Positions 17,505 to 60,770 of a stretch of DNA of 64,000 bases are shown piece after piece; the stretch's first letter is position 1, and each line of letters starts with the position of its first letter. The stretch lies in assembly GCF_029767755.1 (NCBI RefSeq), contig NZ_JARUQS010000001.1:1054001-1118000 (forward strand). Reading direction: 5' to 3'. This DNA is from Thiomicrorhabdus sp. zzn3 (lineage in GTDB: Bacteria > Pseudomonadota > Gammaproteobacteria > Thiomicrospirales > Thiomicrospiraceae). A program made the position numbers and the translations under genes. The notes below the pieces were generated by a model. That model searched no databases, was not told the origin of the DNA, and worked only from the letters and a program-made list of their open reading frames with translations.

Positions 17505-17524
17505 GAACAGGCCTGTTCCGTTTT
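17505..17524 (+). terminator. Palindromic AACAGGCCTG element with T tract after the kinase
   Basis: GAACAGGCCTGTTC (17505-17518) is a perfect 14-base palindrome containing the 10-mer on both strands, followed by CGTTTTTT. It may act as a short stem terminator for the kinase transcript and is one of ten motif copies in the window. Confidence 0.6.
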
Positions 17525-51213: not shown

Positions 51214-51235
51214 GAGTGAGACGGCTTAATAATAA

Positions 51236-51264
51236 AAAAAACCGCACCAAGTGCGGTTTTTTTA
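51236..51264 (+). terminator. Terminator of fabI
   Basis: AAAAACCGCAC-CAA-GTGCGGTTTTTTT, a strong stem with a T tract 20 bases past the stop. Confidence 0.92.
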
Positions 51265-58493: not shown

Positions 58494-58697
58494 ATGACCA
58501 TTGAAAAAATCATTTTACTGGTAGCCGGAACCATGGTTCTAGCCAGTACCATTCTAAGTGTGTACCACGCCCAAGAGTGGCTATACCTAACCGGATTTGT
58601 TGGAGCCAACCTGCTTTTCGCCGGTGTTACCGGCTTCTGCCCAATGGTTAAGATCCTAAGAAAGTTTGGACTTAAACACGGTATCGCTTTCCGCTAA
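58494..58697 (+). CDS. DUF2892 small membrane protein
   Basis: A 67-residue two-helix protein. It has the family pattern LTGFVGANLLFAGVTGFCPM and a basic tail. DUF2892 domains occur alone or fused to rhodanese (YgaP) and are sometimes found with sulfur-metabolism genes; function unproven. GAAGGA precedes the ATG by 7 bases. A perfect 18-bp inverted repeat built from two AACAGGCCTG copies follows its stop. Confidence 0.85.
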   Translation: MTIEKIILLVAGTMVLASTILSVYHAQEWLYLTGFVGANLLFAGVTGFCPMVKILRKFGLKHGIAFR

Positions 58698-58725: not shown

Positions 58726-58765
58726 AAACACAACAGGCCTGGTATTCACCAGGCCTGTTGTGTTT
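58726..58765. terminator. Bidirectional terminator built from two opposed AACAGGCCTG copies
   Basis: Perfect 18-bp stem (58726-58743 with 58748-58765), loop ATTC. The plus-strand copy lies at 58732-58741 and the minus-strand copy at 58750-58759. It fits the gap between convergent DUF2892 and the ABC-F gene, and could stop both transcripts, although T runs are short. Confidence 0.8.
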
Positions 58766-58793: not shown

Positions 58794-60770
58794 TTAATTT
58801 GCTTGCTCAAATTGTTCGGTTAACGACTCAATTTCCTCTTGAAGCGACAACCACTCCATCTCTGACTCTTCAATATGACATTCAAGCTGCGCCTGCTGTT
58901 TTAAGATTTCGGTCAAACGCTCTTTATTCTCCGCTTCATACAGAGAAGCGTCTTCCATCAAGACATGCAATTCAGCCAACTTCTGCTGTGCCGATTCCAA
59001 CTGCTTTTCAATCTTTTTCAACGACTGCTGCTGAGGCTTCAACAACGCATCCAGCTGTTTGCGCCTTTGAGCGTTCTGCTGTCTTAACTGCTTGCGGTTT
59101 AACGTCGGTTCATCGCCCCCACCCCCTTTTTGCGCCTGCGCGAGTCGCTCCTGCTTTAATTCAGCATTGGCCTGCTTCAACACCTTCAGGCGGGCTTGCA
59201 GATAACCGTCCAAATCTCCTTCATAACGAGTGACGGTGCCGTCATGCACCCACCAGAACTGATCCGCAATACTCGCCAACAAGTGCTTATCATGCGTCAC
59301 CAGAATCAACGCGCCCCCAAATTCCTGCAGCGCCATATCCAGTGCATCTCGGGTTTCCATATCCAAATGGTTGGTCGGCTCGTCCAAAATCACCAAGTTC
59401 GGCTTTTGCAAAACGATCATCGCCAGTGCCAGTCGCGCTTTTTCCCCACCGGAAAAGCGCTCCACAACACTCAAGCTCTGCTCGTTAGAGAATCCGAATC
59501 GCCCCAAAAAGTCTCGCGCCTGCTGGTCCGTCAAAGGTTCATCCAGCTCTTTACTTAAGGCCAACATGTGCTGCAACGGACTTTGATCCAGCTGTAAGGC
59601 TTCCAACTGATGCTGGGCAAAATAGCCGATGCGCACCCCTTTACTCATTCGAACCAATCCCGAATTCGGATTTAATTCCCCGACCAATAACTTAATTAAC
59701 GTCGACTTACCGGAGCCATTGACTCCAACCAGACCGATACGGTCTCCAGCACGCAAAACCAAATTGACGCCGGCAAACAGTGCCTTGTTTTGATAAGAGA
59801 AACTCACCTCTTCCAGATTCATCATCGGATCCGGCTGATGCGGAGGCGTTGGAAATTCAAAATGAAACGGATTGGTTGCCTGCACCGCCGCAACCTCTTC
59901 CATGCGCTGCAATGCCTTAACCCGGCTTTGCGCCTGCTTAGCCTTGGAAGCTTTTGCCTTAAACCGTTCGATAAAGGTTTTAAGATGCTGCATCTGCTGC
60001 TTTTGCTTGTCGTGTAACGCCTGCTGTTGCATGAGCTGCTCATTGCGCTGGCGTTCAAACGCTTCGAAATTACCTGAGTAATAGCGAATCTTGTGCTGTT
60101 CGATATGGGCAATCCCCTGCACCACTTGATCAAGAAAATCACGATCATGGGAAATGATCAGCACCGCGCCCTGGTAGCCTTTAAGCCACTGAATCAACCA
60201 AGCCACCGCCTCAATATCCAAATGGTTTGTCGGCTCATCCAGAAGCAACAAGTCCGAACGCTGCATCAAAGCGCGTGCCAATTTCAGTCGTACCTGCCAA
60301 CCTCCTGAAAAGGATTCAATCATGCGTTCGAAATCTTCATTGGTAAAGCCCAGGCCAGCCAAAAGCTGCTTCGCACGGTTGGGCACTTCATAACCACCGA
60401 TACGATCCATTTCATCGTGCGCATCAACCAATTGCTGATGAGATGTATCGTCACTGTCACCCTGCTCCGCTTGACGAATCTTTTCGGCCAGCTGTGCATA
60501 TTGAGTATCGCCCCCGCAGACATAATCCAACACCTTCTGACCTTGGCATTGAGCTTCCTGTTCCACATAACCGATCACCCAGTTGGACGGCACGGAAATT
60601 TGCCCGGCTTCCAGAGGAACTTCTCCCATAATCGTTCTAAACAGCGTGGTCTTACCTGCGCCGTTAGTGCCGATCAAACCGATTTTATGTCCAGGATGAA
60701 CGGTTAAGGAGGCCTGTTCAAAAAGGGGCTTGATGCCGGCGCGAATAGAAACGTTTTGAATTGCTAACAC
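58794..60770 (-). CDS. yheS: ABC-F family ATPase, YheS type
   Basis: Translation-associated ATPase with two ABC domains and no TM segments, 658 residues. Walker A motifs are GTNGAGKTTLF and GVNGSGKSTLI; signatures are SFSGGWQVRLKLA and RFSGGEKARLALA. The inter-domain linker includes FERQRNEQLMQQQALHDKQ and the KAKQAQSRVKALQRME stretch found in YheS, and a long C-terminal coiled coil follows. ABC-F proteins act on stalled ribosomes; the specific role of YheS is only partly known. Confidence 0.9.
   Translation of the reverse strand: MLAIQNVSIRAGIKPLFEQASLTVHPGHKIGLIGTNGAGKTTLFRTIMGEVPLEAGQISVPSNWVIGYVEQEAQCQGQKVLDYVCGGDTQYAQLAEKIRQAEQGDSDDTSHQQLVDAHDEMDRIGGYEVPNRAKQLLAGLGFTNEDFERMIESFSGGWQVRLKLARALMQRSDLLLLDEPTNHLDIEAVAWLIQWLKGYQGAVLIISHDRDFLDQVVQGIAHIEQHKIRYYSGNFEAFERQRNEQLMQQQALHDKQKQQMQHLKTFIERFKAKASKAKQAQSRVKALQRMEEVAAVQATNPFHFEFPTPPHQPDPMMNLEEVSFSYQNKALFAGVNLVLRAGDRIGLVGVNGSGKSTLIKLLVGELNPNSGLVRMSKGVRIGYFAQHQLEALQLDQSPLQHMLALSKELDEPLTDQQARDFLGRFGFSNEQSLSVVERFSGGEKARLALAMIVLQKPNLVILDEPTNHLDMETRDALDMALQEFGGALILVTHDKHLLASIADQFWWVHDGTVTRYEGDLDGYLQARLKVLKQANAELKQERLAQAQKGGGGDEPTLNRKQLRQQNAQRRKQLDALLKPQQQSLKKIEKQLESAQQKLAELHVLMEDASLYEAENKERLTEILKQQAQLECHIEESEMEWLSLQEEIESLTEQFEQAN

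Follow-up and report, generated by a model that had tools for sequence, protein, structure and literature searches.

An inverted pair of a repeated palindromic word as a probable bidirectional terminator in Thiomicrorhabdus, and dialects of a candidate DNA uptake signal

The literature on uptake sequences, as represented by the accessible portions of the sources cited here, covers two families, the Neisseriaceae and the Pasteurellaceae. For the Neisseriaceae, uptake-sequence dialects and inverted pairs are described in the available part of Frye et al. (PMC3630211). In the Pasteurellaceae, uptake signal sequences (USS) are present in hundreds or thousands of copies and often stand as inverted repeats that serve as rho-independent terminators, according to accessible passages of PMC12616744 and PMC2346458; the latter terms the terminator role contentious, and the former characterizes the USS as non-palindromic. 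Here, we analyzed a 64,000-nucleotide stretch of the Thiomicrorhabdus sp. zzn3 genome (contig NZ_JARUQS010000001.1, positions 1,054,001 to 1,118,000), referred to below as the window, in which two opposed copies of the repeated 10-mer AACAGGCCTG form a hairpin at positions 58726-58765. We favor, at a probability of roughly 0.68, the joint reading that this hairpin is a bidirectional terminator made from an inverted pair of a repeated motif, with the motif itself most likely serving as a signal of the DNA uptake type.

The motif resembles the DNA uptake sequences (DUS) of the Neisseriaceae, as far as these are covered by the accessible text, in its many copies, genic as well as intergenic, its species dialects, and its inverted pairs linked to terminators. 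It differs in belonging to another family and in having a palindromic core, CAGGCCTG, within a dyad with A/T tracts in zzn3 and many relatives, and an uptake role is here a prediction. With the USS, it shares copy number and inverted pairs at gene ends, whereas the Thiomicrorhabdus word, unlike the USS, is palindromic in many species. The USS also has an A/T-rich flank, and its sequence is unrelated to the Thiomicrorhabdus motif. Of the DUS/USS features that can be judged from sequence, the motif shows a high copy number, equal use of both strands, presence inside genes along with an intergenic excess, and inverted pairs behind genes. It also has dialects between related species, whose congruence with phylogeny is suggested by a tree of the Uup protein encoded next to the hairpin. 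No description of the motif was found among the papers listed from the literature searched, whose coverage leaves out most subscription papers. The word AACAGGCCTG does appear in three Neisseria papers, in the accessible text of which it lies inside a DUS-free control oligonucleotide, so that we regard this as a chance match.

The hairpin at 58726-58765 and other inverted pairs

What is observed at 58726-58765 is certain: a perfect inverted pair of the motif, folding as a hairpin, lies between two convergent genes. The stem comprises 18 base pairs without mismatch. Its left arm (58726-58743, + strand) is AAACACAACAGGCCTGGT, that is, AAACAC followed by AACAGGCCTG and GT; the loop ATTC (58744-58747, assigned to no strand) is given by the sequence and the RNA fold; and the right arm (58748-58765, - strand), ACCAGGCCTGTTGTGTTT, is the exact reverse complement of the left. 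The two motif copies occupy 58732-58741 on the + strand, with the palindromic core CAGGCCTG at 58734-58741, and 58750-58759 on the - strand, with the core at 58750-58757. The RNA fold of the stem has an energy of -32.6 kcal/mol (z -9.1), a value reached by none of 200 shuffles, and the stem is separated from the stop codon by 28 nt on each side. A stable GC-rich hairpin closely behind a stop codon is what is expected of an intrinsic terminator. As in bidirectional intrinsic terminators, this hairpin stands between convergent stop codons with A-rich and T-rich outer flanks; unlike the usual ones, its stem is made from a word repeated throughout the genome, and its U-tract is interrupted (TTnnnTTT). 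The window as a whole contains 11 copies of AACAGGCCTG, compared to 0.12 expected from dinucleotide shuffles.

Genome-wide, 17 convergent pairs of AACAGGCCTG were found, inverted pairs being defined by a loop of 0-30, with none for the reversed control and 1.08 expected from random placement. Neighboring copies in the other orientations, at the same spacing, amount to 4 divergent and 3 + 3 tandem cases; three places are counted under two orientations, AACAGGCCTGTT being self-complementary. The palindromic core allows a hairpin whatever the orientation, and the convergent one adds the outer AA...TT pairs; its excess (17:4:6 versus 1:1:2, double counts kept) has a p of 3e-5. Measured from the 10-mers, every one of the 17 convergent pairs stands 6-55 nt past a called gene end; 7 are found where genes converge and 10 where they run in tandem, with none in divergent gaps or within genes. 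This placement differs from that of the cores in a 464-kb sample, 89 of 158 of which are genic (Fisher p 2e-6). Folding energies of 16 of the 17 pairs are lower than the 5th percentile for 213 randomly chosen intergenic segments. The tails of the 17 pairs contain 3-9 T per 12 nt over both strands, which amounts to a modest U-tract.

The preliminary description of this DNA had reported the perfect 18-bp stem with its four-base loop and two opposed 10-mers between convergent genes, which coordinates and fold confirm. Its terminator reading gains from the position of all 17 pairs behind gene ends and from the hairpins at the same junction in congeners, which point to such a function, and its analogy with inverted uptake-sequence pairs is apt in view of the hundreds of copies, the dialects, and the inverted pairs at gene ends. 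The possibility that it had named against itself, that no other inverted pairs exist in the genome, fails on the 17 found by the genome scan.

Two further sites in the window carry related features. Between convergent genes at 17506-17517 there is one 12-bp palindrome, AACAGGCCTGTT, with CCGTTTTTT behind it, which may be a terminator in its own right. At 51235-51263 (- strand), there is a strong canonical terminator, AAAAAAACCGCACTTGGTGCGGTTTTTTT, one arm of which contains ACCGCACTT; this reads as the USS core of H. influenzae in reverse complement, a likeness that is probably a coincidence.

The repeated word and its dialects

The 2.37-Mb genome contains 573 copies of AACAGGCCTG, distributed 289/284 over the two strands, and 4 copies of the reversed word. 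Among 21 genomes from 21 other families of the class, the word occurs 0-10 times and the reversed control 0-8 times. A directional motif similar to Chi or to the FtsK-orienting polar sequences (KOPS) was ruled out because the motif is equally frequent on both strands. The natural unit is a longer motif of which the 10-mer is part. In a 464-kb sample of the genome (the window together with 20 stretches of 20 kb), on which the following sample counts are based, the commonest 8-mer is the palindrome CAGGCCTG, with 158 sites versus about 12 expected; the consensus around AACAGGCCTG is the dyad AAACTGAACAGGCCTGTTCAGTTT, and conservation extends six bases beyond the 10-mer on its upstream side and eight on its downstream side. 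The core CAGGCCTG itself occurs 859 times genome-wide, or about once per 2.8 kb, versus 21 times for the reversed word. According to a home-made gene caller, on which these genic and intergenic counts rest, 89 of the 158 sampled cores lie inside genes (10 expected) and 69 between them (2.3 expected); core density per kb is 4.13 in convergent, 1.45 in tandem, and 0.59 in divergent gaps. The number of cores per 10 kb is Poisson-like (mean 3.43, variance 3.29, 46 bins).

One stretch of 15.6 kb (C1:330001-345568) has no CAGGCCTG. It consists mostly of a low-GC surface-polysaccharide cluster with genes for glycosyltransferases, epimerases, and DegT aminotransferases (10 of its 16 called genes were scanned), and its first 10 kb, with a GC content of 0.37, is the sole core-free bin among the 46. 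Coming from one stretch, this is only suggestive of an absence of the core from foreign DNA.

We followed the word through the family, by which we mean the grouping of 62 genomes used by the genome collection; 26 of the 62 were sampled, with 60-464 kb each. The NCBI lineage of Thiomicrorhabdus chilensis, a member of the genus, is Gammaproteobacteria, Thiotrichales, Piscirickettsiaceae. Of the 62 genomes, 32 are rich in the core CAGGCCTG, with 236 copies or more, and the other 30 have 0-74 copies. By genus, core-rich genomes make up 15/32 in Thiomicrorhabdus, 9/9 in g5, 7/11 in g6, 1/1 in g3, and 0/9 in g2, g4, and g28 together. The flank of the core is chiefly that of AACAGGCCTG in zzn3 and mixed in G017 and G025, and the form ACCAGGCCTGGT is found in G018, G030, G014, G008, G021, G027, G033, and G077; G061 and G070 also have the G flank, and G075 has a G or C flank. 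A replacement word of similar build was detected in 5 of the 12 core-poor genomes sampled: AAACTCAACAGGCCGGGTA in G020, with a consensus of about 18 bp including an A-tract; TTTACCGGCCGGTAAA in G023 (42 cores in 80 kb); AAAATCTGCCAGGCTGGGG in G063 (12 sites); and AAAATCTGCCAGGTTGGGG in G064 and G068 (11 and 13 sites). The words of G020, G063, G064, and G068 are non-palindromic. A highly repetitive stretch of about 7 kb in G064 (L258 8829-16102), perhaps a long tandem-repeat gene, was masked ahead of motif counting. A further core-poor genome, G071 of genus g28, carries AAAAAGTCGGGGACCCCC at 9 scattered sites in 80 kb, which may be a further dialect or another repeat.

The clearest change of word is that of G020 and its sister G004. 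The 10-mer of the G020 word, AACAGGCCGG, occurs 659 times in G020, 383 times in G004, 27 times in zzn3, and 0-29 times in the other 29 genomes of the genus, and its inverted pairs number 55 in G020 and 27 in G004, with none in zzn3, G017, or G025. Among eight such sister-dialect pairs inspected, seven stand between convergent or tandem genes and one at a contig edge, none being genic or in a divergent gap; many pairs of this dialect are tailed by, e.g., GAGTTTTT. In a tree of Uup from 28 of the 32 genus genomes, zzn3 included (absent, split, or cut matches were omitted, here as in the junction comparison below), G004 and G020 fall into one supported group with the core-rich genomes of zzn3, G025, G017, and G007, and the tree requires 4 changes of the core-rich/core-poor label, compared to 9.7 with shuffled labels. 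A scan of named genomes for pairs like those of zzn3 returned, among the 80 loci listed, seven in Thiomicrorhabdus and two in a Thiotrichales metagenome-assembled genome (MAG). Since the remaining listed matches are mostly lone and in unrelated bacteria, isolated pairs elsewhere carry no weight.

Pairing within pairs and the junction in related genomes

The preliminary description had also claimed that the extra matching bases of the stem show selection on the pair, and this stood in part. Pairing at 12 flank positions was compared to permutation in 15 of the 17 zzn3 pairs (one sequence duplicate and one other were omitted). The claim does not extend to the AAA/TTT part of the outer arms: outer positions 4-6 pair no better than permutation, and the AAA/TTT pairing is expected anyway because AAA arms are the motif consensus. 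It holds for inner position 1, which pairs in 12 of 15 cases versus 5.3 expected and is the sole clear position of the 12. In the pair at 58726-58765, two non-consensus bases (AC instead of TG) change complementarily in both arms. For the G020 dialect (45 of 55 pairs, 15 positions, 5000 permutations), pairing exceeds expectation at outer base 1 (32/45, as C-G 20 times and G-C 12 times, versus 20.9; P 0.0002) and at inner base 5 (27/41 versus 13.8, reached by none of the 5000 permutations), and it is marginal at inner base 3 (P 0.04).

Single copies behave differently. In 50 intergenic ones, arm-to-arm covariation is weak (P 0.04 and 0.035 at offsets 3 and 5, the seven other offsets not being significant), and in the 89 genic ones it is absent, for which reason single copies as RNA hairpins were rejected. 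With compensatory pairing in the pairs and little or none in single copies, we conclude that the pairs are maintained as hairpins and that a single copy has the look of a site recognized in double-stranded DNA.

The genes that flank the hairpin encode a YgaP-like transmembrane protein of 67 aa (58494-58697, + strand; PF11127 YgaP-like_TM, E 9.4e-13), converging from the left, and an ABC-F ATPase of the Uup type of 658 aa (58794-60770, - strand; PF00005 ABC_tran in two stretches and PF12848 ABC_tran_Xtn), converging from the right. A converging YgaP-like gene stands behind uup in 20 of the 28 genomes compared, zzn3 and a weak match in G009 included, and 19 of these 20 gaps, again counting both, contain a hairpin below -8 kcal/mol. 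In a shuffle comparison of 19 of the 20 gaps, that of zzn3 included and G009 omitted for its weak match, the fold of the real gap was equaled by no more than 1 of its 20 shuffles in 16 cases. Congener gaps often hold a classic A-run/stem/T-run terminator, and the junctions of G004, G020, G017, G007, and G027 are occupied by stems of the type AAAAAGGCCTGA...TCAGGCCTTTTT, which have a complete T-run. The gap of G023 contains that genome's own dialect palindrome, AAAGACTTTACCGGCCGGTAAAGTCTTT; zzn3 and G023 thus use different words, and each has its own word at this junction. The uup-ygaP junction appears to be a terminator position whether or not the motif is present.

Weighing of the readings

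From its sequence and setting, the element at 58726-58765 is very probably a bidirectional intrinsic terminator. A transcript from either gene would fold the CAGGCCTGGT/ACCAGGCCTG stem, the TTnnnTTT of the motif flank would supply a short U-rich tail, and RNA polymerase would halt in both directions. The motif, with its core CAGGCCTG in AAACTGAACAGGCCTGTTCAGTTT, would be a separate entity recruited to this role. By analogy with the known systems, we predict, with slightly better than even confidence, that it is a DNA uptake-type signal of Thiomicrorhabdus and its relatives: a word marking self DNA that a competence protein would recognize in the double strand. Such a word would drift into species dialects while inverted pairs would be retained where a terminator is wanted. 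We thus infer both actual termination and DNA uptake from sequence, the latter less firmly.

A number of observations weigh against this joint reading. The 12-nt tail of the pair has 7 T on either strand, counted from the core, and is a weak U-tract. For want of a T-run behind the 18 bp, the full stem was missed by a simple terminator scan, which reported a weaker hairpin at 58740-58719 (- strand) that overlaps it. The converging YgaP-like gene is missing behind uup in 8 of the 28 genomes, and the match in G009 is weak; the -8 kcal/mol cutoff alone is weak too, as folds below this value also occur in 175 of 380 shuffled gaps. Flank pairing stays within permutation at 11 of 12 positions in zzn3 pairs and at 12 of 15 positions, several of them nearly invariant, in G020 pairs (all above 0.05). 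No replacement motif was found in six of the 12 core-poor genomes sampled (G003, G012, G013, G019, G024, and G026). As to uptake, zzn3 encodes a ComEC/Rec2 protein of 865 aa, but ComEC is present in 56 of the 62 family genomes, core-rich and core-poor alike, and is no discriminator because it is found with or without the core. The GspH minor-pilin model PF12019 matches in 3 of the 62 genomes, zzn3 not among them, and this profile search of the 62 genomes identified no motif receptor, no ComP or ComN model having been run.

ComEC and GspH were accordingly rejected as markers separating core-rich from core-poor genomes, since neither does so. In G020, ComEC (L250 8048-9826) has 592 aa, matches TIGR00361 at positions 62-472 of 663, and is without the end found in the zzn3 protein, yet the dialect is abundant there; a profile search gave no ComEC match in G004, yet its dialect is abundant as well. 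Joint loss of the motif and of comEC in these two genomes was discarded as an explanation once their own dialect was found.

Two other accounts of the motif deserve consideration, though we judge both unlikely. The hairpin may be a terminator while the motif is not an uptake word but an iterated palindrome like cyanobacterial HIP1, kept by an orphan DNA methyltransferase or by repair bias. HIP1 is an over-represented octamer palindrome, repeated throughout the genome and tied to methyltransferases (accessible part of PMC4390886), and CAGGCCTG is likewise an 8-bp palindrome, found about once per 2.8 kb and abundant in genes. Unlike HIP1, however, the word differs between close relatives, which do not keep the same octamer, its pairs stand at gene ends, and its cores are in strong excess in intergenic and convergent gaps. 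It is also asymmetric in four of the sampled genomes. The consensus of about 18 bp with an A-tract in G020 is long for a methyltransferase site. A methylation word is made less likely by these changes of word, its possible asymmetry, and this length. We give slightly less credence to the motif being the site of a global DNA-binding protein (a nucleoid protein, a chromosome-organizing protein, or a regulator), with the pairs at gene ends as a by-product. The dyad consensus and the little or no covariation in single copies suit a dimeric protein, as do some 860 sites with an even spread in the sample; against this, the pairs are confined to gene ends, compensatory pairing would be needless in a double-strand binding site, and several dialects are asymmetric.

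We consider two further explanations very improbable. Many intergenic hairpin pairs would be expected of mobile repeats such as repetitive extragenic palindromic (REP) sequences, bacterial interspersed mosaic elements (BIME), or miniature inverted-repeat transposable elements (MITE), but such repeats should be intergenic only and share a longer element, whereas 89 of the 158 cores are genic, flank conservation ends some 6-8 bp outside the 10-mer, and arms and loops vary from pair to pair. The same low standing applies to two chance neighbors without terminator function: the motif is common and the outer AAA/TTT pairing follows from its consensus, but 17 pairs versus 1.08 expected, all behind gene ends, and hairpins at the orthologous junction of congeners argue against coincidence.

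Taken more widely, the reading of the motif as an uptake-type signal would make this a third family, represented by Thiomicrorhabdus, with its own DNA self-recognition for transformation, in which a signal that is palindromic in many species was recruited repeatedly as bidirectional terminators. We rate this analogy-based claim, which includes at least six dialects sharing a GG-containing core and an A/T-rich flank, as an even bet. If true, it would call for a receptor that recognizes a site with two-fold symmetry and that either has no relation to ComP or is a convergent relative of it. A further family with both palindromic and asymmetric dialects would be an independent replicate for the origin, switching, and spread of uptake words, and it would also bear on why such words end up in terminators. 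The nearly complete switch of word between G020/G004 and their close relatives zzn3, G017, and G025 would make receptor-word co-evolution directly testable.
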